From NCBI GenBank assembly GCA_009926625.1, contig RFON01000018.1:1-47453 (forward strand): DNA of 47,453 nucleotides. Reading direction: 5' to 3'. The notes under the pieces were generated by a model. That model had not been told where the DNA came from. It searched no databases and was given only the letters and a program-made list of their open reading frames with translations. Positions within the stretch are counted from its first letter, which is position 1. Each line of letters opens with the position of its first letter. This DNA is from Planctomycetota bacterium. Its GTDB lineage: Bacteria; Planctomycetota; Phycisphaerae; Phycisphaerales; SM1A02. Below, in pieces: positions 5,741 to 38,361 of this stretch. Both the position numbers and the translations under genes were made by a program.

Positions 5741-5746
5741 CCATCA

Positions 5747-5752
5747 ACTATA
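5747..5752 (-). promoter_or_regulatory. -10 element of the arn operon
   Basis: TATAGT on the minus strand ends 6 bases before the arnB ATG, a distance that would place the transcription start at or next to the start codon. No clear -35 was identified. One of eleven such sites in this window. Confidence 0.55.
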
Positions 5753-5832
5753 TCGGCAATCAGCCCATTCCCAAGCAGTTGAACGCGCGTTGCATCGCTG
5801 CGGGACGCGCCGCGGCGACTCGCGCGACCCGC

Positions 5833-5838
5833 TACACT
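5833..5838 (+). promoter_or_regulatory. -10 element of tRNA-Pro
   Basis: TACACT lies 13 bases before the mature 5' end of tRNA-Pro. The tRNA-Ser gene has TAGACT at the same 13-base distance on its own strand, which supports both as promoter elements. Confidence 0.5.
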
Positions 5839-5851
5839 CGGTGGTTCAACT

Positions 5852-5925
5852 CGGGTTGTAGCGCAGCTTGGTAGCGCGTTTGACTGGGGGTCAAAAGGTC
5901 GTGGGTTCAAATCCCGCCAGCCCGA
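5852..5925 (+). tRNA. tRNA-Pro (GGG)
   Basis: A complete cloverleaf of 74 bases. The acceptor arm pairs CGGGTTG with CAGCCCG (one G-T), with discriminator A. The D arm has GCGC stems around AGCTTGGTA. The anticodon stem TTTGA/TCAAA encloses the loop CTGGGGG, giving anticodon GGG. The T arm is GTGGG TTCAAAT CCCGC. CCA is not encoded and must be added after transcription. The C1 start is typical of tRNA-Pro. Confidence 0.96.
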
Positions 5926-6203
5926 TTCCCGACTCGCGCGGTCTCCCCAGACCCTGCGATCTGCTTTGTATCCGTGTCAAAGCCTCTTGGGCCGCGCCAT
6001 ATTGGTGCCGAGCCCCGACAACTCGCTCAGCATCGGATGCGTCCGTCCATGAACAAGACGCTAGCCTCCGTTCTCCGAGAACGCCGCGAGTGCCCTCCTG
6101 AACGCGCCCCGCTACGCGCGGATTTTGTACTCGTCGCAATCCGCAGCGTGGCGAGGAACAGTCGGTCGGAGTACGGCTGCGTCGCATGCTGGTGAATGAG
6201 GAA
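5926..6203. other. Gap between the two tRNA genes, no gene recognised
   Basis: These 278 bases separate convergent tRNA-Pro and tRNA-Ser. Open frames here reach into the tRNA genes and read as the well-known false peptides of translated tRNAs. Just after tRNA-Pro there is a short stem (GGTCT/AGACC with a CCCC loop) but no T-tract. At 6070-6084 there is a 7-base inverted repeat CGTTCTC/GAGAACG with one central base. I see no supported coding gene and cannot exclude a small RNA. Confidence 0.4.
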
Positions 6204-6290
6204 CGGACAGGGTGGGATTCGAACCCACGATACGGTTACCCGTATACAGCATTTCCAATGCTGCTCCTTCAACCGCTCGGACACCTGTCC
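6204..6290 (-). tRNA. tRNA-Ser (GGA)
   Basis: An 87-base class II tRNA with the long variable arm expected for serine. The acceptor arm pairs GGACAGG with CCTGTCC, with discriminator G. The anticodon stem CAGCA/TGCTG encloses TTGGAAA, giving anticodon GGA. The variable arm has TACGG/CCGTA pairing, and the T arm is GTGGG TTCGAAT CCCAC. CCA is not encoded. Confidence 0.96.
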
Positions 6291-6302
6291 TCTTTCGGTC
6301 GA

Positions 6303-6309
6303 TAGTCTA
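6303..6309. promoter_or_regulatory. Overlapping divergent -10 elements (tRNA-Ser / truB)
   Basis: TAGTCTA reads TAGTCT on the plus strand, 12 bases before the truB ATG, and TAGACT on the minus strand, 13 bases before the 5' end of tRNA-Ser. The two polymerase sites would overlap almost completely, so they could not be used at once. The assignment is inference from position and similarity to the other -10 elements. Confidence 0.45.
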
Positions 6310-6320
6310 CAGGACGAACG

Positions 6321-7052
6321 ATGCAGGGCGGTTCACACGCAGCGGATCTCCATGGCATCTTGCTCGTTGACAAACCCGTCGGTCCCACGAGCATGCGTGT
6401 CGTGGAACGCGTGCGACGCTCCGCGGGTGGTGCGCGCTGCGGTCATGCTGGAACACTTGATCCGCTCGCGAGCGGGCTGCTCGTGATCGGGATTGGGTCA
6501 TGCACCAAGCAACTGAGTCATTGGATGGCTGGTGACAAGCGATACGAGAGCACCATGGATCTGTCGGCGTTCACGGCAACGGATGACAGCGAGGGGGCAC
6601 TGGATGTCGTTGATGTGGCCACGCCGCCGGAGCGCGCGCATGTCGAGCGCGCGCTGCAATCGTTCGTCGGCGAAGTCATGCAGGCACCGCCTGCGTTCAG
6701 CGCCGTGAAGATCGCCGGCCGACGCGCGTACGACTTGGCGCGGCGCGAGGTGCGCGCGGGGGGCGATGCGGGATCCGTGCAGCCGCAGGCGCGCGCGGTG
6801 CGGGTGCATGCCATCGATGTCGTCGCCTGGGAGTGGCCGCTCCTGACGGTTCGGATCCACTGCGACAAGGGCTTCTATGTGCGGAGCCTCGCGCGGGACC
6901 TCGGTCGCTCGCTCGAAACGGGCGGGTTCTGTCGGTCGATCCGCCGAACATGGAGCGCGCCATTCCGCGTCGAGGATGCGCTGCAACTCGATGCACTTCC
7001 GCAGCAGTTGATGCAGGAGCACTTGCAGCCTGCGCCGCAGGTTCAGGGCTGA
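6321..7052 (+). CDS. truB: TruB, tRNA pseudouridine-55 synthase
   Basis: Makes pseudouridine 55 in the T loop of tRNAs. The 243-residue protein has the family start GILLVDKPVGPTS, then RCGHAGTLDPLASGLL with catalytic D47, then the conserved APPAFSAVKIAGRRAYDLAR and, in the C-terminal half, FYVRSLARDLG. It is shorter than E. coli TruB (314 residues) and lacks the C-terminal PUA-like part, as in many bacteria. AGGA lies just upstream of the ATG. The last 10 bases overlap the end of lspA, which reads from the opposite strand. It lies next to the tRNA-Ser gene, whose product would be one of its substrates. Confidence 0.95.
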   Translation: MQGGSHAADLHGILLVDKPVGPTSMRVVERVRRSAGGARCGHAGTLDPLASGLLVIGIGSCTKQLSHWMAGDKRYESTMDLSAFTATDDSEGALDVVDVATPPERAHVERALQSFVGEVMQAPPAFSAVKIAGRRAYDLARREVRAGGDAGSVQPQARAVRVHAIDVVAWEWPLLTVRIHCDKGFYVRSLARDLGRSLETGGFCRSIRRTWSAPFRVEDALQLDALPQQLMQEHLQPAPQVQG

Positions 7053-7687
7053 GCAGGTGCGGACTGCGCGGCCTTTTCCTGCCGACGCGCCGCGGTGTCG
7101 GCGCGCATCGACTGCAGGATCAGGATCGCCATGCCGAGCAAGAGCACCGCGTCGGCAATGTTGAAGACCCAGGGAAAGACCTCGCGCGTGCCGCCGGGCC
7201 ATGCGAGGTTGAACGGCAGGTCGCGGCGCGGCAGCATGTGCAGGAAGTCACGCACGGCGCCGAATGTGATGCGGTCGTACAGATTGCCGATGCCGCCGGC
7301 GAGGACAAGCCCGAGCGCAATGTGCGACCAGGTCGAACGCGCGCGCGTGCGGAACGCGAACAGGCACAGCCCCACGGTCACCGCCACGACGGTCAGAACG
7401 ATGAAGACGCCGCGTGCGTTCTGCCCAATGCCGAAGACGGCACCGTGGTTGACTACGAGGTGAAAGTCAAGCAGGTCAGGAGAAATGACTTGGACACCGC
7501 TGTGCCATGGCAAGCGGTAGGAGGGATCGGCGACGACCTCCCGCGGCTCAAGGATGACTGGATCGCCTGCAACGGTCGCGAAGGCCGCGTGCTTGCTCCA
7601 CAGATCCGCCCCGAGCGCAAGCGCCCAGACAAGGAGCAGCACGGCCCACGCGCGCGGCGAGCGCCACGCAGGGCCGTCGGCGTTCAC
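7043..7687 (-). CDS. lspA: LspA, prolipoprotein signal peptidase II
   Basis: Cleaves signal peptides of diacylated lipoproteins in the inner membrane. At 214 residues it is longer than the usual 160-170, because of a periplasmic insertion of roughly 30 residues after the first helix. Seen: helix 1 WAVLLLVWALALGADLWSK, then VVNHGAVFGIGQN, GGIGNLYDRITFGAVRDF and FNIADAVLLLG. The catalytic aspartates should be D147 and D179. I chose the GTG at 7687 because it overlaps the stop of the upstream dksA-like gene by 4 bases (GTGA) and begins just before helix 1. The frame extends further upstream, but that part lies inside the neighbouring gene. Cotranscribed with the dksA-like gene. Confidence 0.93.
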   Translation of the reverse strand: MNADGPAWRSPRAWAVLLLVWALALGADLWSKHAAFATVAGDPVILEPREVVADPSYRLPWHSGVQVISPDLLDFHLVVNHGAVFGIGQNARGVFIVLTVVAVTVGLCLFAFRTRARSTWSHIALGLVLAGGIGNLYDRITFGAVRDFLHMLPRRDLPFNLAWPGGTREVFPWVFNIADAVLLLGMAILILQSMRADTAARRQEKAAQSAPAQP

Positions 7688-8646: not shown

Positions 8647-8654
8647 GCGGGAAT

Positions 8655-8660: not shown

Positions 8661-8708
8661 GAGTCGGTTGCGGCAGCCCTGGGACTGGGCACAATCCGCA
8701 GCTCCGAC

Positions 8709-8782: not shown

Positions 8783-9748
8783 TCAGCGCGGCGCACCGAT
8801 GCGACGAAACTTGTCGTACCGCTGCGCGAGCAGCGTCTCGACATCGATCCTCGTCAGTTGCGTCAACTGCTCCACGATCCATGCCTGCACCGCCTGCGAA
8901 GCGGCGCGGGGATCGCGGTGCGCGCCCCCGACAGGTTCGCGGATGACCGCGTCCACAAGGCCGTTCGCAAGATTGTCCCTCGCCGTCAGCGCCAACGCCC
9001 TTGCAGCCTGTGGATTGGTGCTTTCGTTCGCCTCCTTCCAGAGGATCGCAGCGCACCCCTCAGGCGAGATCACCGAGTACCAGGCGTTTTCCAACATCGC
9101 AACGCGATCCGCGACGGCAATGCCGAGCGCGCCGCCCGACCCGCCCTCGCCGATGACGATCGACACGATCGGCGTGCGCAGACGGCTCATCTCGCGCAGG
9201 TTGACCGCGATCGCCTCCGCCTGTCCGCGCTGCTCGCTGTCGATGCCGGGGTACGCCCCGGGCGTATCGACAAGAGTCACGATCGGCAGGCGGAACTTTT
9301 CCGCGAGGCGCATTTTCAGGAGCGCCTTTCGATAACCCTCAGGGTTCGCGCAGCCGAACCTGCACGCGATGCGCTCTGGGGTCGTGCGCCCCTTCTGATG
9401 CCCGACAAGCAGCACCTTGAACGGTCCGAGCCGCGCAAAACCCGTGACCATGGCAGGATCATCTGCGTACCGCCGATCGCCATGCAAAGGACAGAAATCG
9501 CGGCAAATCAGGTCGACATAGTCGAGCGTCTGCGGGCGAGCCGGATGCCGAGCCACGCGGACCGTCTGCCATGGGGTGAGGTCGCGGTAGGTTCTCTCGA
9601 GCAGGGTGGCGTGCGCAGCGCGAAGCGTCGCCATCTCATCCGACGCAGCTTCTCCCGCCGCCTCGAGTGCTGCAATCTGCCGTTCCACCTCGGCCACGGG
9701 TTGCTCAAAATCGAGCAGCGCGACCGACCCAATCGTGCTGTGGGTCAT
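8783..9748 (-). CDS. accA: AccA, acetyl-CoA carboxylase carboxyltransferase subunit alpha
   Basis: The alpha subunit transfers the carboxyl group from biotin to acetyl-CoA, the first step of fatty acid synthesis, in complex with AccD. The protein has 321 residues (E. coli 319). It starts with an N-terminal helix typical of AccA (LLDFEQPVAEVERQIAALE), followed by TPWQTVRVARHPARPQTLDY, then FCPLHGDRRYADDPAMVTG, GHQKGRTT, TLVDTPGAYPG, GEGGSGGALGIAVADRVAM and SVISPEGCAAILWK, all in family order. No Shine-Dalgarno; TACCAT ends 6 bases before the ATG. The gene diverges from proC across 34 bases. accD and the biotin subunits are not in the window. Confidence 0.97.
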   Translation of the reverse strand: MTHSTIGSVALLDFEQPVAEVERQIAALEAAGEAASDEMATLRAAHATLLERTYRDLTPWQTVRVARHPARPQTLDYVDLICRDFCPLHGDRRYADDPAMVTGFARLGPFKVLLVGHQKGRTTPERIACRFGCANPEGYRKALLKMRLAEKFRLPIVTLVDTPGAYPGIDSEQRGQAEAIAVNLREMSRLRTPIVSIVIGEGGSGGALGIAVADRVAMLENAWYSVISPEGCAAILWKEANESTNPQAARALALTARDNLANGLVDAVIREPVGGAHRDPRAASQAVQAWIVEQLTQLTRIDVETLLAQRYDKFRRIGAPR

Positions 9749-9754
9749 TCTCCG

Positions 9755-9760
9755 ATGGTA
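9755..9760 (-). promoter_or_regulatory. -10 element of accA
   Basis: TACCAT on the minus strand, 6 bases before the accA ATG. It stands back to back with the proC element 10 bases away. Confidence 0.55.
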
Positions 9761-9770
9761 GCACCCATGC

Positions 9771-9776
9771 TATTGT
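9771..9776 (+). promoter_or_regulatory. -10 element of proC
   Basis: TATTGT ends 6 bases before the proC ATG. The region upstream where a -35 would lie falls over the accA start, in a shared 34-base gap. Confidence 0.55.
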
Positions 9777-9782
9777 TCACGC

Positions 9783-10628
9783 ATGGCTGAAACAGTTGTG
9801 GTGGTTGGTTTCGGCAGCATGGGAAGCGCACTGGTGACGGGATGCGTCCGCGCCTCGGTGCTCACTGCGCGCCAAGTCACGATCATCGATCCAGATCCAG
9901 CTGCGCGCGAACGCGCGGAGCAGATCGGTTGCGCGGCCACGACAGACCTCGCACGCGCCGCGGATGCGGACATCGTTGTGCTCGCGGTGAAGCCGCAGTC
10001 GTTTCCTGAGGTGGCGCTCGCGGTCGGGCTCCTCAAGCCAGGCACGCTGGTGATATCCGTGATGGCTGGCGTATCCACGACCCGCATGAGCGAGGCCTTC
10101 GGCGCGGGCACCCACACGGTTCGCTGCATGCCGAATGTGGCCGCGCAGGTCGGGCTCGCCGTCACGACATATGCCGCGGTCAAGGAGTGTTCCGATGCGA
10201 ACCGTGCTCGAGCACTCCGCGTGCTTGGGTCCATCGGCTCCACAGTGGAGATCCCAGAGCACCTGTTTGATGCGGCGACCGCGACGAGCGGATCAGGCCC
10301 CGCGTATCTGTTCCTCCTCGCGGAGTCGATGATCGAGAGCGCCATGCGATTGGGCTTTGACCGCCCGACCGCGGACCGCCTCGTACGCCAGTCGCTGCTC
10401 GGAGCTTCCACGCTGCTTGCGCGCGGCGACCGCAATCCTGCGGAGTTGCGCGGCATGGTGACAAGCCAAGGGGGGACCACCAGCGCAGCGGTGGCGGTGT
10501 TCGAGTCCCATGGGTTCCAGTCCATGATGCACAACGCGCTTCGCGCGGCACGCGACCGCGGGCGTGACCTTGCGGCGGCAGCCGCGCGGCAGTCCGCTCC
10601 CCCGCCGGCCGTTACGGGCGGCGCATGA
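9783..10628 (+). CDS. proC: ProC, pyrroline-5-carboxylate reductase
   Basis: Reduces 1-pyrroline-5-carboxylate to proline with NAD(P)H. It has 281 residues. The Rossmann loop VVGFGSMGSALVTG is at the N-terminus, VLAVKPQ marks the cofactor site, and ISVMAGVSTTRM and RCMPNVAAQVG follow. The C-terminal dimer and catalytic region carries ATATSGSGPAYLFLLAESMIE, then RQSLLGASTLL and LRGMVTSQGGTTSAAV, a close match to the family signature. The stop overlaps the next gene, an ABC ATPase, by 4 bases, an unexpected partner for a biosynthetic enzyme. The gene probably heads that operon from its leaderless-type promoter. Confidence 0.96.
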   Translation: MAETVVVVGFGSMGSALVTGCVRASVLTARQVTIIDPDPAARERAEQIGCAATTDLARAADADIVVLAVKPQSFPEVALAVGLLKPGTLVISVMAGVSTTRMSEAFGAGTHTVRCMPNVAAQVGLAVTTYAAVKECSDANRARALRVLGSIGSTVEIPEHLFDAATATSGSGPAYLFLLAESMIESAMRLGFDRPTADRLVRQSLLGASTLLARGDRNPAELRGMVTSQGGTTSAAVAVFESHGFQSMMHNALRAARDRGRDLAAAAARQSAPPPAVTGGA

Positions 10629-11617: not shown

Positions 11618-12696
11618 CGCAAACCGCAGCGATCTTCCTCAGCGCCTACCGCGAACTCAGTGCGCGGCGGCTGTTCTGGCTCGCGCTCGTGATCAATGTC
11701 CTGGTGGTGGCGCTGTTCGCGACGCTCGGCATCAACGAGCAAGGCATCAGCTTTCTCGGATGGACTTTCGACAGCCCCTTCTTCAATAGCAACACCACTT
11801 CACCCGAGACGTTCTACAAGTCGCTGTTCGTCACGCTCGGCGTCGACTGGTGGCTGGGGCTGATCGCCACCCTGCTTGCGCTCGTGACGACCTGCGGCAT
11901 CATTCCTGACCTTGTCGCGCCAGGGTCGATCGACCTGCTGCTGGCCAAGCCGATCGGGCGCGCTCGGCTGTTCCTCACGAAGTACGCAAGCGGGCTGCTG
12001 TTCGCTGCGCTGCAGGTGAGTGTCTTTTCCCTCGCGAGTTTCGCGGCGATCGGGCTTCGCGGCGGCGTGTGGGAATGGGGGCTCTTCCTCGCCGTGCCGA
12101 TCGTCACCTTCTTCTACAGTTTGCTCTACTGCATCTGCGCGCTCGCAGGGATGCTGACGAAGTCCTCGGTTGCCTCGCTGATCCTGACGCTGCTTGCCTG
12201 GACGGTCATCTTCTCGGTGAACCTCTCGGAGTCGATCGTGGTCGCGGGTCGCATCGCCAACACCCTTGAGACCGCCGCGATCGAGCGGGAACTGGTTGCT
12301 GGCGTGACGAAGGACGGTTCCGAACCGCTCGACGAGGAAGAGTTGGAAACGCTGCGCACGGATTTGCAGCGGGCGAAGGACAACCGCGTCGACTGGGACC
12401 GCGCGTTCTTCTGGTTCCACGGAATCAAGACCTTCGTGCCAAAGACGGGCGACACGCTCGAACTGCTGGACCGATGGCTGCTCGCGTCCGCCTCGATGCC
12501 GACCCGCGACCCCGACTCCGAGCGAGGCCCGCAGCGCGCGTTCGGACCGCGGCGCGTGAAGCGCGGCGAGTACGAGCGTGCGCTCAAGGACGAGGAGCGA
12601 TCTCGCTCGATCGTTTGGGTGCTTGGAACGAGCGCTGCGTTCGAAGCGGGAATTCTGCTGCTTGCGACGGTGGTGTTCGTCCGCCGCGATTACTGA
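11614..12696 (+). CDS. ABC-2 type permease
   Basis: A 360-residue integral membrane protein, the partner of the preceding ATPase. About six hydrophobic segments are visible: LFWLALVINVLVVALFATLG, WWLGLIATLLALVTTCGII, a segment near LFAALQVSVFSLASFAAIGL, GLFLAVPIVTFFYSLLYCIC, VASLILTLLAWTVIFSVNL, and a last helix near the C-terminus (VLGTSAAFEAGILLLATVVF). Between the fifth and last helices lies a charged loop of about 120 residues with ELETLRTDLQRAKDNRVDWD. ABC-2 permeases often have such a loop. DLVAPGSIDLLLAKPIGRARLF is characteristic of the NosY-like branch. The end overlaps the convergent mltA by 7 bases. Confidence 0.82.
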   Translation: MTQTAAIFLSAYRELSARRLFWLALVINVLVVALFATLGINEQGISFLGWTFDSPFFNSNTTSPETFYKSLFVTLGVDWWLGLIATLLALVTTCGIIPDLVAPGSIDLLLAKPIGRARLFLTKYASGLLFAALQVSVFSLASFAAIGLRGGVWEWGLFLAVPIVTFFYSLLYCICALAGMLTKSSVASLILTLLAWTVIFSVNLSESIVVAGRIANTLETAAIERELVAGVTKDGSEPLDEEELETLRTDLQRAKDNRVDWDRAFFWFHGIKTFVPKTGDTLELLDRWLLASASMPTRDPDSERGPQRAFGPRRVKRGEYERALKDEERSRSIVWVLGTSAAFEAGILLLATVVFVRRDY

Positions 12697-13985
12697 GCGC
12701 GGCGAGCGGGCTTCTTGGTCGCCGCTGGTGAATTGGCGGGCGCCTTGGGCGGCAGCGGGTACTGCGAAACGTACTCGGGCTTCAGGAAGAAGTAGTAGAC
12801 CGTTCCTTCCGCGTACTGTCCGCCCGCGAGGATTTCCGCGCTTGGTCCGATTCCCATGAAGATGTCGGCGCGGCCTGGTGCGCGGATTGCACCGCCGGTG
12901 TCTTGATCAAGCATGAATCGCTTGAAGACCGACTTGGACGAGCCGTAGGTTGCCCCCATCGTGTCGACAAATGTGATGCCGCCAGGTGGATACACGCTCT
13001 TGTCCGTTGCGAGCGATGCCTGATCGGTGACCTTGACGCCGAGGCTGCCCGCGGGCCATGTCTTGCCGTCGTACTCCTGGAAGAACACGAAGCGGTTGTT
13101 CATGTTCATGTAGCGCTCGACCGTGGTCGGGTCCTTCTCATAGAGACGCCGAACCGCGGTGAGACTGAGTTGGTCCGCCGGGATCAGTCCCGCCTTCATG
13201 AGGCTCGTGCCGAGTCCCACATACTCGCCGTCGGTCGCACCTGCGTAGCCGATGAAGATGATGCGTCCGTCGGTCAGCGTCAGTTTCGCGCTGCCGTTGA
13301 TCTGCACGATGTACGCATCGAGCGCGGTCGGGAACCAGGCAAGTTCGAGTCCCTTCAGCATGCCGCTCGATTCGATCTCGGCGCGGTCAGGCCAAGGCAC
13401 CACCGAGCTCTCCGACACGCGCCGCCCGAGCGACTTGCCGGTGACCGGATCGGTCTCCAGTTCCTTCGGTCGTCGGTACACGGGGAAGTCGAAGCCAGGC
13501 TGTCGGGTCAGGCTCGCGCGGAACTCTGGTGCGAAGTAACCAGTGAAGAGCACGCCGCCCTTGCCGTTCCATCCTTTGGTCTGGTAGCAGTCGAACATCT
13601 GCTTCAGTGCTGCGGAGAACGCATCCGCGCTCGCGCTGTCGACGAGTACCTGCTGGAACGCGACGATGCTTGCGGAGGCCTGATCCCAGGACGCCACTTC
13701 AGGGAATGGGAACATCTGCGGGAACCGCGTGCGGCTCGATGGCGCTTGGAACCATGTCTGGCTCTGCATCAGCGCTTCCGTGAGGTAGGCGTCACGCGAA
13801 TCCCACGCCTTGGTGAGATCGGGCCACGGTTCCTCGGGGCCGAGCTTTCGCAGCGCACACTCGCCAGGAGCGAGCGGTCGGGCGAAGTCTGCGGTCGGTG
13901 CGGGTGGCGGCGCCGTCTCGCAGCCAGCGAGAAGGGCGAGAGCGATCGTGGCGAGAAGCGATGAGTGTTGGATGCGTCCGTGCAT
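12690..13985 (-). CDS. mltA: MltA, membrane-bound lytic murein transglycosylase A
   Basis: A lipoprotein that cuts peptidoglycan between MurNAc and GlcNAc, leaving 1,6-anhydro ends. It has 431 residues. The signal ALALLAGCETAPPP gives a lipobox Cys. The MltA barrel domain includes FTGYFAPEF (seen as VLFTGYFAPEFRASLT). The C-terminal 3D domain, with its three essential aspartates, is visible in ITFVDTMGATYG, MLDQDTGGAIRAPGRADIFMG and the preceding DQASLATDKSVYPPGG. I chose the ATG at 13985, directly before the signal peptide; the upstream in-frame codons are not needed. TACCAT ends 6 bases before it and there is no Shine-Dalgarno. The product would use LspA (7043) for maturation. Divergent from tatA. 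Confidence 0.92.
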   Translation of the reverse strand: MHGRIQHSSLLATIALALLAGCETAPPPAPTADFARPLAPGECALRKLGPEEPWPDLTKAWDSRDAYLTEALMQSQTWFQAPSSRTRFPQMFPFPEVASWDQASASIVAFQQVLVDSASADAFSAALKQMFDCYQTKGWNGKGGVLFTGYFAPEFRASLTRQPGFDFPVYRRPKELETDPVTGKSLGRRVSESSVVPWPDRAEIESSGMLKGLELAWFPTALDAYIVQINGSAKLTLTDGRIIFIGYAGATDGEYVGLGTSLMKAGLIPADQLSLTAVRRLYEKDPTTVERYMNMNNRFVFFQEYDGKTWPAGSLGVKVTDQASLATDKSVYPPGGITFVDTMGATYGSSKSVFKRFMLDQDTGGAIRAPGRADIFMGIGPSAEILAGGQYAEGTVYYFFLKPEYVSQYPLPPKAPANSPAATKKPARRAQ

Positions 13986-13991: not shown

Positions 13992-13997
13992 ATGGTA
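13992..13997 (-). promoter_or_regulatory. -10 element of mltA
   Basis: TACCAT on the minus strand, 6 bases before the ATG at 13985; the same hexamer and distance as at accA. Confidence 0.55.
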
Positions 13998-15567: not shown

Positions 15568-17616
15568 ATGCGAGTGAACATCAAACGAGCAAGCAAAGAC
15601 GAGAGCGAAGTCATGCGCCATCGGCAGCACGAACACACATGCGGTCGCCACCCGCCAGGATCGGCGGGATGGTTGACTGGCTTGGCTCGGGCGGGCTGGC
15701 CCCTGTCACGGTTGACGAGGGGGCTGGCCCTGCCCGCAGCGTGCGCTCCGATGTTGGCTGTCGTGCTCGCGGGATCGCCGATGTGCGGCTTGCCGCTGTC
15801 CATCGCCTCGGGAGTCACTCGCGACGACGCAGTCGACTTGATCGACCCGCGGATCATCGAGTCGTTTCGTGCGACCGCAGGGAGTCTGCAAGACTCCTTC
15901 GCGGCTTCCGACCACATGCTGCTCGTTCGTCGAAAGATGGCTGTCGACGCATCGCTCGCAGCCCCGATTCTGGTCCAGCAACTCATGCGCGGCGATCCGC
16001 CGCGTCAATGGCTCGCGCTGCTCGACGACTGTTACGGCGCGGCGACAGCGGCGGGTCAAGAGGGCTCGGTCCCGGCCGAGATGGTCCTTGCCTTGGAGGC
16101 GCTCAAGCAATCGAGCGGACCGCTTGAACTCTGTTGGCGTTCACGAACAACGGATGGCGCGGCGAGCGAGTGTGGAATGACCATCGCCTGGAGCGGGCGT
16201 GTCGCAGCCGATGGCTTCGAAGTCCGCTCGGATTGGTGCAGTCCCTGCCTCGGTCAGCGAGGTGGCAACTTTCCGCTTCCTGCCGACCGCACGATCGTCT
16301 CTTGCAGCGTGCACTCGATGAGCGTTCGCGTCGAGGGCAGTTCGGCGCATCTGACGCAGCCGTGGCCTAATGAGCCTGCCCAGTTCATCCATCTTGGCGA
16401 TGTCTACGACCCCCTCGACACGCTGCGTGCCGCATGGTGGACGCGGGAGGTCGTTCTGCAACCTGGGCTCCACATCGGGCGGCGCGCGCGGTGGATTCCG
16501 ATTGGGAACGGCAACGCTGGCGTGACGACCGATGGCGCAGCGGCATGCTCGGCATGCTCGGCATGCTCGGCATGGCGCCTGCAAGTGGCGCTTCGTTCTT
16601 GCGCGGCAAACAGGACGGCAGGCTTTGCGATCACACCGCGCGACTCAGCGTTGACACGGCTCACGCTGCGACCATCGACGGATGTGCCGCTCGTCGAAGA
16701 TGGCAGTGTCCTGGAAATCGACTTTGTGCCGGCAGCGCGAGGGGCTGCACACGCGCTGCCACCGTTGCCACTCGTGCCAAGGACCATTCGTTGTCTCGCC
16801 GACGGGCGCGAGGCCTGGCGGTGCGATATCCACCAATTCGGCGGACCGCCCAAGGTTGCCGCTGATCGCAGCACAGCGTGGGTGGCTGCGATTGATGTGC
16901 TCCAGCAGGTTCAGACCGCCTGGGATGTGTCTTCGCTGCCTCGTCCGCCGCTCGATGATTCGAGCGCTCACACGGACACGGCCACGATGTTGGCGCAGTG
17001 CAGTGCCCGCGCTTGGTACGCGGGCATGCTGGGCGACTGCGAAGTGCTCGCGAGTGCTCTGCAGCGGGTGCGAATGCTGCTTGCGCAGGAGACCGCAAAC
17101 GACCGCGAACTGAGCGGCGAGGATGTATCAGGGGGCGGGGATGTATCAGGCTTGATGCTGAACGAGTACGGCTGTCTCGCGGAGTCGATGACCGTCGCGG
17201 GCGCGTCTGACTCGATCCTCATGCTCTTGGAAACGATGCACCTGACCGAAGCTGCTGCACTGCCGCATTGGGAGCGGCGCGCTGCCTGCCTGCGCGCTGC
17301 TGCGTCGGGAAGGTTCTGGCAGGCCGACCACATCGCTCGTGCGGCGCTTTGCACCGATGCGGGAGAGCGAGATCGCGCACTTTGGCGGCGCATCCGCGAG
17401 CAACTCCGTCCGTGGTGCCTAGCGCCAATGCAATTCACTGCCTCAGGCGGTGATCCCGCGGTCATCGCCCTTGGCGCTTGGATCGCAACGCGCGATTACG
17501 AATGGCGAGCGGCTGATGCAGCAGGGTTCCCTCCGCTGGGAACCATCGATGGTCATCAATCGGGTGGTTGCGCGCGCGAACTTGCGGCGACATTCGCCGA
17601 GTGGGAGCGCGACTAG
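15568..17616 (+). CDS. Large exported protein, unknown function
   Basis: Not recognised. The protein has 682 residues. The first 60 are basic, with a hydrophobic segment ending in ACAPMLAVVLAGSPMCGLPLS, which could be a signal peptide or anchor. Conserved-looking elements are few: CWRSRTTDGAASECGMTIAWSG and SDWCSPCLGQRGGNFPLP in the middle third, and a helical C-terminal third (ALQRVRMLLAQETAND, MLLETMHLTEAAALPHWERR) that may contain helix-hairpin repeats. Two short in-frame tandem repeats (16543 and 17121) point to local expansion. The start is uncertain: Met 1 at 15568 or Met 16 at 15613, neither with a Shine-Dalgarno. It follows the 14557 gene by 18 bases. The stop overlaps the convergent cytochrome gene by 4 bases. 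Confidence 0.65.
   Translation: MRVNIKRASKDESEVMRHRQHEHTCGRHPPGSAGWLTGLARAGWPLSRLTRGLALPAACAPMLAVVLAGSPMCGLPLSIASGVTRDDAVDLIDPRIIESFRATAGSLQDSFAASDHMLLVRRKMAVDASLAAPILVQQLMRGDPPRQWLALLDDCYGAATAAGQEGSVPAEMVLALEALKQSSGPLELCWRSRTTDGAASECGMTIAWSGRVAADGFEVRSDWCSPCLGQRGGNFPLPADRTIVSCSVHSMSVRVEGSSAHLTQPWPNEPAQFIHLGDVYDPLDTLRAAWWTREVVLQPGLHIGRRARWIPIGNGNAGVTTDGAAACSACSACSAWRLQVALRSCAANRTAGFAITPRDSALTRLTLRPSTDVPLVEDGSVLEIDFVPAARGAAHALPPLPLVPRTIRCLADGREAWRCDIHQFGGPPKVAADRSTAWVAAIDVLQQVQTAWDVSSLPRPPLDDSSAHTDTATMLAQCSARAWYAGMLGDCEVLASALQRVRMLLAQETANDRELSGEDVSGGGDVSGLMLNEYGCLAESMTVAGASDSILMLLETMHLTEAAALPHWERRAACLRAAASGRFWQADHIARAALCTDAGERDRALWRRIREQLRPWCLAPMQFTASGGDPAVIALGAWIATRDYEWRAADAAGFPPLGTIDGHQSGGCARELAATFAEWERD
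16543..16574 (+). repeat. 9-base tandem repeat inside the 15568 gene
   Basis: GCATGCTCG three times perfectly plus a partial fourth copy. In frame it encodes Ala-Cys-Ser three times. The unit contains the palindrome GCATGC. Its length, a multiple of three, keeps the frame open if copies are gained or lost. Confidence 0.85.
17121..17150 (+). repeat. 18-base-period direct repeat inside the 15568 gene
   Basis: GGATGTATCAGG occurs at 17121-17132 and again at 17139-17150. It encodes a doubled Asp-Val-Ser-Gly, probably a surface loop. Confidence 0.8.
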
Positions 17617-18683
17617 GGAACTGGCTCGGAGGAGTTCGCAGGCTCTGGCGCGGGCGGAGGCGCGGGCGGAGGCGCTGCCGCGGGCGCGGCTACGCCCTCA
17701 GTTGCGCCCTGCGCGATCCATGCGCGAACCACGGCGATGTCCGCCTTCGAGACGCGCTCGCCCTCCGGCGGCATCGCATCTTCGTCATCGATCGGCAGTT
17801 CCATGCTGCGGACAATCGCGCTCTCGTCGGGGGCACCAGGCTTCACGATCCAACGGTCCTTTCGTTGGCGAAGCATTGCCGAGACATCATCAAGCTGGAC
17901 TCCTGCCTTGCGTTTTCCGTTGCCGTGACACTCAAAGCATCGCGACGCAAGGATCGGCAACACCTGCGTCTTGAAGTCGATCCGAGCCACGGCGATTGGC
18001 TGCTGCGCTGGCGCGGGCGTTGGCGCAGGCGCTGGTGCGGGCGTTGGCGCTGGCGGTGGCGCGGGCGGAGGCGCGGGCGCGGGCGCGGGCGCGGGCGCTG
18101 ATTGCGGCGGAGGCTGAGGCGGAGGACTCACGATGCCGAGTGCTTCACGCGCTTCGTTTGCCGCGCGATCTCGCTTTGCCTGCTCGGTCGCCTCGAGCGC
18201 CCGAAAGAAAGCCTCTGGCACGGCTCCATCGCCATGAACCAGTTCTCCGCCAAGGTGCCCTGCCCCTCCGATCCCAAACGCGACAGCCACAAGCGCCAAT
18301 CGCCATGCAGCGATGACGGACGATGAAGCACCACCCTTCGAACGCACGGTTGAGCGAAGGGCGCCGCCAGTCACCCAGAGGGCAAACAGCGCAGCGGTGC
18401 CGCTGATTGCGATCCAACGGTGCAAGAACAGGTCCATGCCACCATCGCTGTACGAGTCGGCGTTCATCCAACCGGTCACGCACGCCATCACGCCGCTCAG
18501 CGCCGCAATCCAGATGCAGGTGAACGCGAACGGCGACGGCGCTGCACGCCCACGGACCGCGCTCCACACCTCCGCCGCAGCAGCGAGCACCGTGAGCGCC
18601 AGCGGAAAGTGCAGCACAGCAGGATGCAGCGTGCCGACGAAGAACGCCCAGGCATCGGTCACCTGATCGGCAAGGATGGTCAC
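17613..18683 (-). CDS. DUF2231 membrane domain fused to planctomycete-type cytochrome c
   Basis: A 356-residue membrane protein. Residues 1-150 form a four-helix domain of DUF2231 type, with LHPAVLHFPLALTVLAAAAE and FLHRWIAISGTAALFALW; the conserved His residues in the helices could bind heme. A Pro-Ala linker of about 40 residues (187-228) follows. The C-terminal domain is a planctomycete-type cytochrome c: RCFECHGNGKRKAG binds heme through C249, C252 and H253, and IVRSMELPIDDEDAMPPEGE supplies the usual MPP motif. A second Pro-Ala tail ends the protein. The role is probably periplasmic electron transfer; partners are not visible here. The start is GTG at 18683, with TATCCT 7 bases upstream. 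Confidence 0.85.
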   Translation of the reverse strand: MTILADQVTDAWAFFVGTLHPAVLHFPLALTVLAAAAEVWSAVRGRAAPSPFAFTCIWIAALSGVMACVTGWMNADSYSDGGMDLFLHRWIAISGTAALFALWVTGGALRSTVRSKGGASSSVIAAWRLALVAVAFGIGGAGHLGGELVHGDGAVPEAFFRALEATEQAKRDRAANEAREALGIVSPPPQPPPQSAPAPAPAPAPPPAPPPAPTPAPAPAPTPAPAQQPIAVARIDFKTQVLPILASRCFECHGNGKRKAGVQLDDVSAMLRQRKDRWIVKPGAPDESAIVRSMELPIDDEDAMPPEGERVSKADIAVVRAWIAQGATEGVAAPAAAPPPAPPPAPEPANSSEPVP

Positions 18684-18690: not shown

Positions 18691-18696
18691 AGGATA
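18691..18696 (-). promoter_or_regulatory. -10 element of the cytochrome gene
   Basis: TATCCT on the minus strand, 7 bases before the GTG at 18683. It lies in the 49-base gap after dinB, so the cytochrome can be transcribed apart from dinB. Confidence 0.5.
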
Positions 18697-18732: not shown

Positions 18733-19896
18733 CTACTGCGCGCCGCCTGCCCGACGAATGCACGAGTCCCCGAAGCGGCGCCTCAGCGCATCCGTCGCGG
18801 CATCGAGCCGACGCTCGCGCGCCGCTTCAGGGTCGGGAAACAGTCCCTGCCCTTCTGCGGCTTGACCAAAGTTGGAGAGCGAAACCCCCAGCAACCGCAC
18901 GGCGGACCACTCCGACTTGCACCAAGCATCCAGCAGCGCGCTGGCCATCCGCCACACGGCGGCAGTCGAGTCCGTGACCGCATCAGCCGATGCCTGCCGC
19001 GTCAGTGTCGTGAAATCCGGGCGCCGGACCTTCAGCGTCACGGTGCGCGCCGCGAACCCGCGTGAACGCATCTGCCAGCTCACGCTTTCCACCTGCCGTA
19101 GCAGTATCTCCCGCAATTGCCGCGGGTCGTCGATGTCCTCACCGAAGGTCTCCTCGTGTCCGATGCTCTTTCGTTCGCGGTCGCCTTCCACGGGTCGATC
19201 ATCGATCCCTTGGGCAAGCAGCCACGCATGCTCCCCCGCGGAACCGAGATCGGCACGCACACGGTCGCGCGACGCCGATTGCAGATGACCGAATGTCAGG
19301 TAACCAAGCCGACGAAAGCGCTCCTCTGCAACGGGTCCGACCCCCCACAGTCGCCCGATCTCGAGCGGCGCAAGGAACGCAAGCAGCCCCTCGGCGCGCA
19401 CGATGACGAGGCCACGCGGCTTTCGGAGATCCGAGGCGATCTTCGCCACGAACTTGCTCTGCGCCAACCCCGCAGAGCAATGCAATCCCGTTGCCGCAAA
19501 CACACGGTCCACCAGCAGCCGCACGGTTTGGGATGGATCACCGTGCAATCGCTCCGTCCCCGTCAGATCCACGAACGCCTCATCAAGCGACAGTGCCTCG
19601 ACGGACGGCGAGAACGAGCGCAGCGTGTCCATGAACCGCCGCGACAGTTCCACATACCGCCGCATTCGAACGGGTCGCACGACGGCACTTGGACAGCGTC
19701 GCCGCGCCTCCGCCATCGGCATCGCCGAGCGACACCCGCAGGCGCGCGCCTCATAGCTGGCTGCAGCCACCACGCTTCGTGCGCCAAGACCGCCGACAAG
19801 AACAGGACGACCGCGAAAGGACGCGTCATCGAGTTGCTCGACGCTCGCGAAGAACGCATCGAGATCAACATGAACGATGAAGCGATCGCTCGGCAC
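18733..19896 (-). CDS. dinB: DinB, Y-family DNA polymerase IV
   Basis: An error-prone translesion polymerase of 387 residues. The palm carries HVDLDAFFASVE (D11) and SLDEAFVDLTG (D105, E106), the metal-binding acids. Also seen are VAAASYEARACGCRSAMP, the Y-family steric and fingers region, then CSAGLAQSKFVAKIASDLRKPRG, and the helix-hairpin-helix thumb IGRLWGVGP. The little-finger domain contains KSIGHEETFGEDI. It ends SCIRRAGGAQ without an obvious QLSLF-type clamp motif, but GQGLFPDPE near residue 360 may serve as the beta-clamp peptide. The start is GTG at 19896, 9 bases past the murG stop. No LexA box was recognised. A TAGCCT -10 inside the murG end may drive it alone. Confidence 0.95.
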   Translation of the reverse strand: MPSDRFIVHVDLDAFFASVEQLDDASFRGRPVLVGGLGARSVVAAASYEARACGCRSAMPMAEARRRCPSAVVRPVRMRRYVELSRRFMDTLRSFSPSVEALSLDEAFVDLTGTERLHGDPSQTVRLLVDRVFAATGLHCSAGLAQSKFVAKIASDLRKPRGLVIVRAEGLLAFLAPLEIGRLWGVGPVAEERFRRLGYLTFGHLQSASRDRVRADLGSAGEHAWLLAQGIDDRPVEGDRERKSIGHEETFGEDIDDPRQLREILLRQVESVSWQMRSRGFAARTVTLKVRRPDFTTLTRQASADAVTDSTAAVWRMASALLDAWCKSEWSAVRLLGVSLSNFGQAAEGQGLFPDPEAARERRLDAATDALRRRFGDSCIRRAGGAQ

Positions 19897-19904: not shown

Positions 19905-19910
19905 AGGCTA
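19905..19910 (-). promoter_or_regulatory. Possible -10 element of dinB
   Basis: TAGCCT on the minus strand, 8 bases before the dinB GTG and overlapping the murG stop codon. If real, it separates dinB control from the cell-wall genes upstream. Confidence 0.4.
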
Positions 19911-26821: not shown

Positions 26822-26827
26822 TATGTT
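26822..26827 (+). promoter_or_regulatory. -10 element of the metalloprotease gene
   Basis: TATGTT ends 8 bases before the ATG at 26836, directly after the terminator of the previous gene. There is no convincing Shine-Dalgarno. Confidence 0.45.
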
Positions 26828-29168: not shown

Positions 29169-29846
29169 GTGCGTTCAGATCCGGTCGCTTGGATCGCCGT
29201 TGGGCTTGGCGCCGTGGCGTGCTGCCCAGTCGCAGCGCTCGGCGGGTTACTTGCGGGTGCCCTTTCGCTCGCTCGCATTCGAAGGTCGGATGGGCGCCTG
29301 ACTGGACAACGCATCGCGTGGACTGGCATCCTGCTTTCGGTGGTGGTGGGCGCGACTTCGCTGCTTGTCGCCGAACGCCTGCAGGCCGCTCAGACCGCAA
29401 ACAGCCTCTCGGCTGTTCGAAGTGCCGTCGAGCAAACCCTCAGCGGGAGCGTCGACGCATCCGCATGGTGGGTCCGTGAAGCGCACCCTGGTTTGATCGA
29501 TTTTCAGCGGGAGATGGCCAAGTTGGTGGCACCAGTCACCGTGGGGGCGACAACGCAGACAGAGACTTTGATCGGCAACCCGCCTGTGGGACGGTTTCGT
29601 TTGGTGATCCAGACACGGTCCGGGGATGCGATTGGATCGGTGGATGCGCTGCTCGTCACCGACTGGAGCACATGGCTCCCTGGGCCGCGCCTTCGGAGCA
29701 TCGAGATTGCACTGCCGCGATCGACGACCGCGGCATCGTCCGAGGCATCAGTCGAGGAATCGGGCGAATCACCAGAGCAGTCCATCGTGCGCTATCCGCG
29801 CGTTGACCCACCCCAAGCGGGTGCTACCCTGCCCCGCGATGGCTGA
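29169..29846 (+). CDS. DUF4190-like membrane protein, first of two
   Basis: A protein of 225 residues. Two N-terminal membrane helices (VAWIAVGLGAVACCPVAALGG and the segment around GILLSVVVGATSLLVAERL) flank a short positively charged loop, as in DUF4190 proteins. The C-terminal 150 residues are soluble and probably periplasmic, ending in a Ser/Glu-rich tail. The next gene encodes a protein of the same layout; the motif CCPxxxLxGxxxG is shared. I chose GTG at 29169; TTG at 29166 is the alternative. The last 8 bases overlap the next gene. Function unknown. Confidence 0.68.
   Translation: MRSDPVAWIAVGLGAVACCPVAALGGLLAGALSLARIRRSDGRLTGQRIAWTGILLSVVVGATSLLVAERLQAAQTANSLSAVRSAVEQTLSGSVDASAWWVREAHPGLIDFQREMAKLVAPVTVGATTQTETLIGNPPVGRFRLVIQTRSGDAIGSVDALLVTDWSTWLPGPRLRSIEIALPRSTTAASSEASVEESGESPEQSIVRYPRVDPPQAGATLPRDG
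29825..29830 (+). promoter_or_regulatory. Possible -10 element inside the 29169 gene
   Basis: TACCCT ends 8 bases before the ATG at 29839. If active, the second DUF4190-like gene and the mlaF-murD run can be transcribed without the first. Confidence 0.45.
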
Positions 29847-33903: not shown

Positions 33904-33909
33904 TATACT
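33904..33909 (+). promoter_or_regulatory. -10 element of the 33917 gene
   Basis: TATACT, the closest to consensus of the short-distance elements, 7 bases before the ATG at 33917 and just past the ispF stop. Confidence 0.55.
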
Positions 33910-33916: not shown

Positions 33917-35050
33917 ATGCGAGCATTCGTGACAGGGCAGATCGGCGTGGACAAGCGCCCGTATCTGCAGCAGGTCGTGGAGATGGCGGGTGAGCGCGGG
34001 GATCGCATCGAGCTGTTCAACATCGGCGACCTCATGTACGCGGAGGCGTCGGACATCACCCCCGGCCGCATCCTCGACCTGCCGATTTCTCGGCTCGCGA
34101 GCCTTCGTCGCGCCGCGTTCAAGGATGTGATCGCTGCAACGCAACCGAAGTCCGAGCATCCCAATGTCATCATCAACACGCATGCCACCTTCCGCTGGCG
34201 GCACGGCCTCTTCAGTGCATTCGACTTCGATCAGTTGCAGAAGCTGGAACCAAACTGCTTCATCTGCATCGTCGACAATGTGGAAACGGTGCACCATCGT
34301 CTGCACCGCGAGCATGTCATCGATGCGACCCTCAAGGACTGCATGGTGTGGCGCGAAGAGGAGATCTTGGCAACGGAACTGATGGCGCAGGCCATGGGAT
34401 GCGGAAGCAACTTCTACATCCTGAGCCGTGGACGACAGCGCGACACGATCGAGACATGCGTCAGGCTCGTGTCGCGCCCGGACATGCGAAAGGTCTATCC
34501 GTCGTTCCCGATGAGCCATGTCGTCGACATGCCCGATGTGCTCGAGGAGATTGCGCACTTTCGCGCGGAACTCGCCAAGCACTTCATCACATTCGATCCC
34601 GCCGATGTGGATGAGAAGTTGCTGCTCGACCGTGCCATCGATGCTGCACGAAAGGGCGATGACTTCGTCGAGGTCCAGCCGCACGCGTTCGGCGGGCGCG
34701 AGGGCAATCCGACGATGCGACTGCCCGTGCGCGAGGTGCTCGACATCGCCGGCGACATCGACGGGCAGATCTACATGCGGGACTTCAAGTTGATCGACCA
34801 GAGCGACATGATCGTTTCGCTGGTGCCTGAACTGCCGGGGGGCGTTCCAGCCTTGTCGAGTGGCGTCGAGCGCGAACTGCACCATGCCTTCGAGCACACC
34901 AAGGAGGTGTATGTGGTCTGGAAGCCGAAGAAGAACCCCAGCCCCTTCATCAGCGAGACGGCAACCAAGGTCTTCCGAAGTGTGTCGGAAGCGCTGGGCT
35001 ACTTTGAGGCAAAGGGTATGTTCGCTCCCGCGTCGCTGTTCGGCCACTGA
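33917..35050 (+). CDS. AdkA-like P-loop protein fused to a deoxyribosyltransferase-like domain
   Basis: A protein of 377 residues with two parts. The N-terminal 190 residues look like archaeal-type adenylate kinase: MRAFVTGQIGVDK at the P-loop position, FNIGDLMYAEA, and NVIINTHATFRWRHG followed by LEPNCFICIVDNVETVHHRL. The P-loop is altered: GQIGVDKR (7-14) instead of a GxxGxGKT/S form, with Asp and Arg in key places. After KVYPSFPMSHVVDMP the C-terminal part resembles nucleoside 2-deoxyribosyltransferases: YMRDFKLIDQSDMIVSLVPE, then SSGVERELHHAF (314-325) and KEVYVVW. Activity is unknown; nucleotide or nucleoside binding is inferred. The ATG at 33917 follows TATACT by 7 bases; GTG at 33896 would overlap ispF. 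Confidence 0.72.
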   Translation: MRAFVTGQIGVDKRPYLQQVVEMAGERGDRIELFNIGDLMYAEASDITPGRILDLPISRLASLRRAAFKDVIAATQPKSEHPNVIINTHATFRWRHGLFSAFDFDQLQKLEPNCFICIVDNVETVHHRLHREHVIDATLKDCMVWREEEILATELMAQAMGCGSNFYILSRGRQRDTIETCVRLVSRPDMRKVYPSFPMSHVVDMPDVLEEIAHFRAELAKHFITFDPADVDEKLLLDRAIDAARKGDDFVEVQPHAFGGREGNPTMRLPVREVLDIAGDIDGQIYMRDFKLIDQSDMIVSLVPELPGGVPALSSGVERELHHAFEHTKEVYVVWKPKKNPSPFISETATKVFRSVSEALGYFEAKGMFAPASLFGH

Positions 35051-35898: not shown

Positions 35899-35916
35899 TC
35901 CCGTCATGAGGCTTCC

Positions 35917-37110: not shown

Positions 37111-37151
37111 GTCGACCTGGATCGGCAGTGCGCCTAGAGTGCGCCGCGAAG

Positions 37152-37838
37152 ATGCCTTCGATGAACATTGCTGTTTTCGGTCCACATCCAGACGATCAGG
37201 AACTCGCCATGGGCGGCACGATTGCGCGCCTCGCCTCGGAGGGGCATGTCGTCACCCTTGTCGATCTCACCGACGGCGAACCAACCCCGATGGGTGATCC
37301 CGTCACGCGCGCACGGGAGGCTGCAGAGGCGGCCGCGATCCTCGGCGTGCCGCGCATTTCTCTTGGGATGCGAAACCGCGCGATCGTCGACGATCTTGCC
37401 TCCCGAGCCGCCGTTGCTGGCGCGATTCGTACGCTGCGCGCCGACATCGTGTTTGCGCCGCATCCCGTCGATGCACACCCTGACCATGTTGCGGCGACGA
37501 GCATCATCGAAGCGGCGTGCTTTGCGGCAAAGTTCACCAAGAGTGACTTGCCCGGCGAGCCCCACACCGTTGCCCACATCTTCCACTATTTCGCGACGCA
37601 TCTGCGCAGCGTCCCGCAGCCAGCGTTCATCGTGGACACGACAGGATTCGCGGACCACAAACAGCGCGCGATACTCGCCTACGCAAGCCAGTTCATTCGC
37701 AATGAAAGGAATCGGGAGATTCCAAAGTGGGTGCACGCTGCAGGGACATACTTCGGCAGCCGCATCGGCTGCGAAAGCGGCGAGCCCTTCGGGAGCCGCC
37801 AGTGCATTCCGCTCGACATCGGCGCACTTCGCGTTTGA
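37152..37838 (+). CDS. PIG-L family N-acetylglucosaminyl deacetylase (BshB-like)
   Basis: A protein of 228 residues. The zinc site is built by FGPHPDDQELAMGGTIA near the N-terminus and PHPVDAHPDHVAA in the middle; the first Asp of the PHPDD motif acts as base. LVDLTDGEPTPMG is common in the BshB1/MshB branch that deacetylates GlcNAc-malate or GlcNAc-inositol in low-molecular-weight thiol synthesis. The C-terminal GCESGEPFGSRQCIP partly resembles the BshB ending. Bacillithiol is one possibility; deacetylation of another sugar conjugate made by the preceding glycosyltransferase is another. ATG codons at 37152 and 37161 are both possible. It lies 41 bases after the glycosyltransferase gene. Confidence 0.82.
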   Translation: MPSMNIAVFGPHPDDQELAMGGTIARLASEGHVVTLVDLTDGEPTPMGDPVTRAREAAEAAAILGVPRISLGMRNRAIVDDLASRAAVAGAIRTLRADIVFAPHPVDAHPDHVAATSIIEAACFAAKFTKSDLPGEPHTVAHIFHYFATHLRSVPQPAFIVDTTGFADHKQRAILAYASQFIRNERNREIPKWVHAAGTYFGSRIGCESGEPFGSRQCIPLDIGALRV

Positions 37839-37850
37839 AGGATGCGCCCC

Positions 37851-37883
37851 GTTCGCGCCCAGTTCGCGCCCAGTTAGCGCCCC
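37851..37883 (+). repeat. 11-base tandem repeat at the dut stop
   Basis: GTTCGCGCCCA twice, then GTTAGCGCCCC. The dut stop codon (TAA on the minus strand, 37874-37876) is formed by the variant third copy, where TTA replaces TTC, so repeat divergence created or preserves the stop. Confidence 0.8.
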
Positions 37884-38317
37884 GTCGAGCCGAACCCGCC
37901 ACCACCTCGCGCGGTCTCACTCAACTCGTGCGTCTCGTCCCATGACACTCGCGCGACTGGCGCGACCACCAGCTGCGCGATCCGCATGGCGGGCGTCACA
38001 GTGAAGTCGGCGGGTCCGAGGTTGATGAGCGCCACTTTCATTTCACCGCGGTAGTCCGCGTCAACGGTGCCGGGGCTGTTGGGGATCGTCACGCCGTGAC
38101 GGGTCGCGAGCCCGCTTCGGGGCCGAACCTGCCCTTCAAAGCCGGGCGGCAACTCGACTGCGAAGCCAAGCGGAATGAGCGCAATCGCACCGCGTTCAAG
38201 GACGAGATCCCCGTCGATTGCCGCATGCAGGTCCATCCCCGCTGCGAGCGCAGACTGATACTCAGGGAGCACCGCATGCGGCGAGAGCCGCTGGAAACGA
38301 ACGCGAACATCTGCCAT
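37874..38317 (-). CDS. dut: Dut, deoxyuridine 5'-triphosphate nucleotidohydrolase
   Basis: Hydrolyses dUTP to dUMP and keeps uracil out of DNA. It has 147 residues, a typical trimeric dUTPase. The five motifs are all present: AGMDLHAA (1), [12 protein letters not shown] (2), [19 protein letters not shown] (3), [10 protein letters not shown] (4) and the Gly-rich end [11 protein letters not shown] (5), which folds over the active site. The ATG at 38317 has TACACT 6 bases upstream and no Shine-Dalgarno. An in-frame start at 38344 would lie upstream of this promoter element and is rejected. The C-terminal codons lie next to a tandem repeat at 37851. Confidence 0.96.
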
Positions 38318-38323
38318 GCGGCG

Positions 38324-38329
38324 AGTGTA
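38324..38329 (-). promoter_or_regulatory. -10 element of dut
   Basis: TACACT on the minus strand, 6 bases before the dut ATG. The same hexamer precedes tRNA-Pro. Confidence 0.55.
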
Positions 38330-38347
38330 GGGGTTGCCGCGCACCGC

Positions 38348-38353
38348 TATCGT
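38348..38353 (+). promoter_or_regulatory. -10 element of the 38362 gene
   Basis: TATCGT ends 8 bases before the ATG at 38362. With the dut element it forms a 44-base divergent promoter region much like that of accA-proC. Confidence 0.5.
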
Positions 38354-38361
38354 TCTCGCTG

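Follow-up and report, generated by a model that had tools for sequence, protein, structure and literature searches.

Start-proximal TANNNT boxes as putative promoters of leaderless or near-leaderless mRNAs in a planctomycete of the order Phycisphaerales

Boxes ahead of start codons in the window

The stretch analyzed here (the window, 47,453 bp) is contig RFON01000018.1 of the 2.58-Mb draft genome of an uncultured planctomycete of the order Phycisphaerales (GCA_009926625.1; 105 contigs, 91% complete), and it contains many genes with a hexamer of the form TANNNT a few bases ahead of the start codon. These include accA, proC, mltA, dut and dinB, a gene for a planctomycete-type cytochrome, and 'arnB', which Pfam identifies as a DegT/DnrJ/EryC1-type aminotransferase gene (Table 1). 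An initial annotation of this DNA had listed eleven such hexamers at distances of 6-8 bases from the start codon, and all eleven hexamers and their distances are exact on re-checking. Among all 40 called genes in the window, ten have TANNNT at 6-8 bases where 0.67 would be expected (Poisson P 2.7e-9); nine of these are on the initial list, and the tenth is the gene at 1-546. The background of about 0.5% per position used in that annotation also holds, with values of 0.56% from the window composition and 0.37% in upstream regions.

Table 1. TANNNT hexamers in the window and the features that they precede.
Hexamer	Position	Strand	Distance (bases)	Downstream feature	Remark
TATAGT	5747..5752	-	6	ATG of 'arnB', 4559-5740	putative -10 box
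TACCAT	9755..9760	-	6	ATG of accA, 8783-9748	putative -10 box
TATTGT	9771..9776	+	6	ATG of proC, 9783-10628	putative -10 box
TACCAT	13992..13997	-	6	ATG of mltA, 12690-13985	putative -10 box
TACACT	38324..38329	-	6	ATG of dut, 37874-38317	putative -10 box
TATCCT	18691..18696	-	7	GTG of planctomycete-type cytochrome gene, 17613-18683	putative -10 box
TATACT	33904..33909	+	7	ATG at 33917 (AAA-domain protein)	putative -10 box
TATGTT	26822..26827	+	8	ATG at 26836 (M12-type metallopeptidase)	putative -10 box
TACCCT	29825..29830	+	8	ATG at 29839	less secure; within preceding called gene
TATCGT	38348..38353	+	8	ATG at 38362	gene insecure
TAGCCT	19905..19910	-	8	GTG of dinB, 18733-19896	putative -10 box
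TAGGAT	554..559	-	7	ATG of gene at 1-546	-10-like box, not on initial list
TACACT	5833..5838	+	12	tRNA-Pro, 5851-5926	box ahead of untranslated RNA
TAGACT	6304..6309	-	13	tRNA-Ser, 6204-6290	

A Pfam scan of ten of the eleven proteins (that of 29839 was left out) gave matches above the curated cut-off for nine, consistent with the names used. The proC start is fixed, because its Pfam domain begins at residue 5. For dinB the gene caller agreed with the initial start in one run and chose a later one in another, and the initial start is supported by a polymerase domain that runs from residue 10. Two of the eleven genes are insecure: 29839 shares 8 bases with the called gene that precedes it, and 38362 (102 aa) was missed by the gene caller and matches only zinc-ribbon models, all below cut-off. 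The gene caller was also inconsistent between runs in the segment 13986-16881 (next gene at 15751 or at 16882), and the annotation is uncertain there.

Distance and letter specificity

The distances were examined in 647,453 bases of this genome (the window and longer stretches, about a quarter of the genome; 485 genes called) and in 393,897 bases of a congener, G005. The gene caller scores coding potential only and has no promoter or Shine-Dalgarno (SD) model; in a check against 42 annotated Escherichia coli genes it recovered 36 and placed the start of 28 exactly. A gene was assigned to the leading/spaced set (332 genes here, 204 in G005) if its upstream neighbour is divergent or lies at least 20 bases away on the same strand; the 'leading' subset has 283 and 175 genes respectively, and the closely preceded set has 144 genes here and 108 in G005. 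Bins of 3 bases from 30 to 94 bases upstream of the starts served as the control.

TANNNT occurs at 6-8 bases in 57 of the 332 leading/spaced genes and at 9-11 bases in 26, with a control mean of 3.4 (sd 2.0), and in G005 the corresponding numbers are 45 of 204 and 12 (control mean 2.9); both genomes have their main peak at 6-7 bases. Sliding bins applied to an earlier gene call (285 leading genes) give 37 in the 6-8 bin and 21 in the 9-11 bin, with none further out above 6. Over distances of 5-10 bases a box is present in 81 of 332 genes here (~7 by chance) and in 52 of 204 in G005 (~6 by chance); a fifth to a quarter of the apparent unit-heading genes carry a box at leaderless distance. The peak that the initial annotation proposed is therefore found outside the window, in the quarter-genome sample, and its description of leaderless initiation as a 'major mode' is a fair one at these frequencies.

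Whole-genome counts, which use no gene calls and compare TANNNT-N6-ATG with the phase-matched TANNNT-N15-ATG on both strands, agree with this, giving 208 and 66 respectively in this genome. The initial starts were chosen by eye and two of the eleven are insecure, as would suit an explanation by chance and the picking of favourable start codons; however, starts called from coding potential with no promoter model show the peak in two genomes, and the gene-call-free counts already refute this explanation, whose likelihood we regard as negligible. Applied to Thermus, the same script gives 28 of 98 leading genes with the hexamer at this distance (6-8 bases), where 1.6 would be expected (several of the species share orthologous loci and are not independent), and no peak is seen in E. 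coli, either with called genes (3 of 56 at 6-8 bases, 3.2 expected) or with the annotated starts of 42 genes (2 at 6-8 bases, ~1.9 expected).

All three fixed letters of the hexamer (T at positions 1 and 6 of the -10, A at position 2) are needed for the signal. Among the 247 box-less genes here, hexamers altered at the first T, at the A or at the last T are present at 6-8 bases in 30, 16 and 9 instances, compared with 24.8, 25.4 and 6.1 expected, and the 149 box-less genes of G005 have 21, 24 and 8, compared with 18.2, 18.6 and 5.7 expected.

The second feature of the distance distribution is the set of sites slightly further out. The usual spacing of bacterial promoters puts the transcription start site ~6-8 bases downstream of the -10 box. 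From some boxes at 9-10 bases the transcript would retain a few leader bases, which makes 'leaderless or nearly so' the more exact description. In the 283 leading genes here there are 42 matches at 6-8 bases and 20 at 9 and 10, and the frequency of the latter fits an alternative in which the promoters are real but most transcripts retain a leader of ~2-8 bases and are treated by the ribosome as leaderless. The position of the main peak argues against this, since with the usual spacing the start site would then lie on the codon itself, and we consider this alternative unlikely, although still a serious one.

tRNA genes and the nature of the boxes

TANNNT is also present 9-16 bases ahead of the mature tRNA in 19 of 34 distinct tRNA genes of this genome, where ~1.1 would be expected; the 34 are the tRNA genes readable from 30 of the 46 tRNA loci and from the sampled stretches. 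The tRNA boxes share forms with the protein-gene boxes (TACACT, TATCAT and TATACT). Because tRNA genes are never translated, the hexamer is best read as a promoter -10 box. Five tRNA genes are readable in G005, and there one box is found at 9 bases and two at 19.

These observations bear on a reading in which the hexamer acts in translation, for example as an S1 site or an unfolded patch within a leadered mRNA, and has no relation to transcription. The genome does encode a six-domain S1-type protein, and S1 sites have been offered as one alternative for an AT-rich upstream bias (Nakagawa et al. 2017, PMC5397173). Such an element would account poorly for identical hexamers ahead of tRNA genes or for a signal that requires T, A and T, one-letter replacements being not clearly enriched. 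The distribution of boxes relative to upstream genes points the same way, although coding constraint could also explain it: only 14 of the 144 closely preceded genes have a box, as compared with 81 of the 332 leading/spaced genes, and 11 of the 14 are among the 22 genes with a gap of 9-19 bases, leaving 3 in the 122 with shorter gaps or overlaps. We judge a purely translational role to be very improbable.

Where the gap is 9-13 bases in this genome, TAA or TAG is the stop codon of 7 of 10 upstream genes, compared with 16 of 92 others. The idea that the stop codon doubles as the TA of the box was dropped, as G005 has no such excess (8 of 17 and 30 of 61).

The bases preceding the box in 159 promoters of the two genomes are C in 50% at position -1, G in 44% at -2 and C in 41% at -3, and GC stands directly ahead of 11 of 20 tRNA boxes (L219-L248). 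The GC pair precedes 35 of the 159 boxes and 15 of 82 other TANNNT sites, which is not clearly different. This preference for CGC ahead of the box is perhaps a lineage-specific extended -10.

Shine-Dalgarno sequences and the translation machinery

An SD sequence is present in 7 of the 81 box genes and in 54 of the 251 other spaced genes (p 0.008), and the level in the box genes is that of the control (6-10%). SD-like motifs are more common within closely packed genes, being found in 58 of 144 closely preceded and 51 of 283 leading genes here (p 1e-6), and in 28 of 108 and 22 of 175 respectively in G005 (p 0.006). The picture suggested by these sequences is one of leaderless or other non-SD starts at the heads of transcription units, with SD-dependent starts probably placed within operons. 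The initial annotation had also described genes with a good SD as having their -10 further away, and this is not borne out, as there is no enrichment of TANNNT 12-95 bases upstream of SD-bearing leading genes (51 here, 22 in G005), a region in which variable leader lengths would blur any enrichment.

The 3' end of the 16S rRNA of this genome has an intact CACCTCC, which rules out a degenerate anti-SD in this organism, and bS21, IF3 and the S1-type protein are all encoded; with the anti-SD kept and these proteins present, SD initiation is available. Two further candidate causes were rejected. Loss of bS21 is ruled out because it is present in 117 of 118 planctomycete genomes, both with and without the signature, and loss of IF3 because IF3 was found in 20 of the 21 genomes searched, this one among the 20. 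The control search did not find bS21 in Thermus composti, Deinobacterium or Corynebacterium, and leaderless-rich lineages therefore differ in bS21.

Conservation among relatives

Many of the boxes are retained at aligned starts of related genes, with some drift in distance. TATAGT is found 6 or 9 bases from the aligned arnB start in all eight rows found (seven distinct sequences), TATCCT or TATTCT in nine of ten cytochrome rows with an alignable start (eight of nine distinct), and TANNNT at 6-9 bases in six of seven such dinB rows, the exception (L158) belonging to another family. For mltA two of three rows retain the box: TACCAT or TATCAT lies at 8 bases in two close relatives and is missing in L021, the sole other row aligned from residue 1. 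The sole relative found for 33917 again has TATACT at 7 bases, and the sole relative of 26836 with an aligned start has TACAGT at 6. The box of 29839 is not conserved in the sole relative found (0/1), and no relative of dut or 38362 is present among the loci compared.

The divergent genes accA and proC are separated by only 34 bp (9749-9782), and this gap holds two back-to-back putative -10 boxes 10 bases apart, so that the upstream half of each promoter would overlap the start of the other gene. A search of 18 congeners gave a proC match in 17, and in all 18 genomes of the genus (this one and the 17) the gap is 34-36 bases, both starts are ATG, and TANNNT lies 6-7 bases before proC and 6-8 before accA. 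At six loci of other genera accA and proC are still divergent, with gaps of 13-142 bases and less certain starts, and there the two boxes are not retained in this form; at six more loci the two genes are not close divergent neighbours. Similar arrangements recur elsewhere: of the divergent pairs with gaps of 10-70 bases, 5 of 17 in our own sample have boxes at both ends and 8 at one end, and for the 5 such pairs in G005 the corresponding numbers are 3 and 1. Compact freshwater Phycisphaerae with genomes of ~2.6 Mb are reported to have intergenic spacers with a median of 43.5 bases (Andrei et al. 2019, PMC6461901). The present organism, whose proC has its 13 nearest named relatives (60-93% identity) in metagenome-derived genomes, is probably a freshwater one too.

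Distribution across the Planctomycetota

The comparison across the phylum is built on the whole-genome counts, because the gene caller is weak on small samples and per-genome fractions from 80-kb samples are merely indicative. In G057, for example, three caller versions gave 3 of 29, 1 of 42 and 7 of 48; in G011 the version with a GC3-based start gave a coverage of 0.19 and 0 of 32, as compared with 6 of 27 and 8 of 40 from the versions before it; and in G202 (GC 0.73) one version gave no box in 35 leading genes and the GC3-based version 7 of 42. Among the 80-kb samples from outside the order, no excess is seen in G148, G166, G145, G110 or G169, and that in G156 and G121 is small. The whole-genome counts cover 212 genomes, 101 of the order of this organism (which is itself included) and 111 sampled elsewhere in the phylum, with significance corrected for 212 tests; for any one genome with a high background they are a weak test.

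Within the order, 88 of the 101 genomes have a significant excess, this one among them; they comprise all 18 genomes of the genus, 37 of the 43 from the family's other genera, and 33 of the 40 from other families. Seven of the 13 non-significant genomes have control counts above 700, where the test is weak. The strongest contrast of all 212 genomes is that of G202, of the same order (321 and 14).

Elsewhere in the phylum 42 of 111 sampled genomes are significant, and these are split by family. Positive families include f45 and f30 (5 of 5 each), f25 and f40 (4 of 4 each), f22 and f28 (3 of 3 each), f13 (4 of 5) and f19 (3 of 4), and families with no significant genome are f26 and f38 (0 of 7 each) and f20 (0 of 5); many other families are represented by one genome each. 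Other orders of the same class have none among four genomes from three families. The f26 genomes have a pooled excess of 102 over seven genomes (8629 and 8527), as compared with a median excess of 152 per genome in the genus, and their zero is not due to low power because two of them have low backgrounds (130 and 124, 230 and 231). In f38, where all genomes have high backgrounds, the pooled excess is 98 (16172 and 16074). We lean towards the view that the leaderless mode with a start-proximal -10 is general across the order and in several other planctomycete families and absent in others, even though bS21 is nearly universal.

Discussion

The reading that best fits these observations, and in our view very probably the correct one, is that the hexamers are -10 elements of ordinary sigma70-type promoters that make leaderless or near-leaderless mRNAs. 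RNA polymerase would start ~6-8 bases downstream of the box, a position that we infer from the usual promoter spacing; at distances of 6-8 bases transcription would begin on the A of ATG or the G of GTG, and at 9-10 bases a few bases earlier. The resulting mRNA would have no leader or nearly none, with no room for an SD sequence, and the ribosome with its initiator tRNA would have to recognise a 5'-terminal start codon. Of the genes that are not closely preceded, a fifth to a quarter would use this mode, with SD initiation mainly inside operons. Leaderless initiation from a start-proximal -10, as the initial annotation proposed, is supported by the distance peak, the need for all three letters, the background level of SD sequences in box genes, the tRNA boxes, the conservation among relatives and the whole-genome excess.

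Several observations weigh against this reading or limit its reach. Sites at 9-11 bases are common, forming a fifth to a third of the total (12 of 57 in G005, 26 of 83 here), and therefore not every transcript would be strictly leaderless. The -35 signal is weak, with TTGACA matched at four or more of six positions in 35 of 159 promoters and 20.1 in shuffles, and 15 of the 34 tRNA genes have no box at 9-16 bases. In G005 the difference in SD frequency (4 of 52 box genes, 28 of 152 others; control level 4-9%) is not significant alone (p 0.078). About 60% of leading genes carry neither signal, box or SD (173 of the 283 in this genome, 109 of the 175 in G005), and would have to start in some other way. 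Finally, the excess is missing altogether from two genomes of the order, G039 (417 and 434) and G199 (1633 and 1638).

Leaderless expression from a start-proximal TANNNT is known from Deinococcus-Thermus and Actinobacteria. In Deinococcus-Thermus a TANNNT -10 that adjoins the open reading frame drives leaderless mRNA with no -35 required, and in Deinococcus the motif acts alone, although an added -35 strengthens expression (Zhong et al. 2025, PMC12340547). The planctomycete boxes are like these in the identity of the hexamer and its closeness to the start codon, with a peak that the same script also finds in Thermus. They differ in belonging to another phylum, in the lack of a match for the planctomycete bS21 in the control search of Thermus composti and Deinobacterium, and in their spacing, which is spread over 6-10 bases here and falls at 6-7 (27) and 11-12 (18) in the Thermus sample of pooled orthologous loci.

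More broadly, leaderless genes with TA-like signals have been described in 207 of 953 bacterial genomes, with TAnnnT ~12 bases before the start in high-GC genomes and shares of ~20% in Actinobacteria and ~40% in Deinococcus-Thermus (Zheng et al. 2011, PMC3160421). The present planctomycete resembles those groups in its signal and in the share of genes; Planctomycetes are missing from the list of leaderless groups in that paper, and its main text contains no word that starts with 'plancto'. Leaderless mRNA and/or S1 has been suggested for SD-poor phyla including the Planctomycetes, represented by one species, and that paper appears to locate no -10 box for it and not to separate the two possibilities (Nakagawa et al. 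2017, PMC5397173). A 2009 paper found the Planctomycetes to lack a clear SD spacing range (PMC2784483), and the anti-SD types of Phycisphaerae and Planctomycetia are given in a 2024 survey that appears to describe no leaderless use for the phylum (PMC10783764). Among the matches listed in a search of open-licence papers, no further title is about leaderless genes of Planctomycetota, and the extent and family-wise patchiness of leaderless genes in this phylum thus appear to be new.

If the distribution proposed here is correct, the phylum has seen several gains or losses of this mode of initiation against a single ribosome toolkit, and the mode lets divergent genes of compact genomes like this one share gaps of ~34 bp that hold two back-to-back promoters. 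There are practical consequences, in that programs for gene prediction may set start codons wrongly in these bacteria if they look for an SD, and a leader may be unnecessary in constructs designed for expression in them. With families that have the signature and families that lack it, and with bS21 in nearly all sampled genomes, the Planctomycetota would form a natural experiment in which the causes and costs of switching the mode of initiation can be compared directly within a single phylum.

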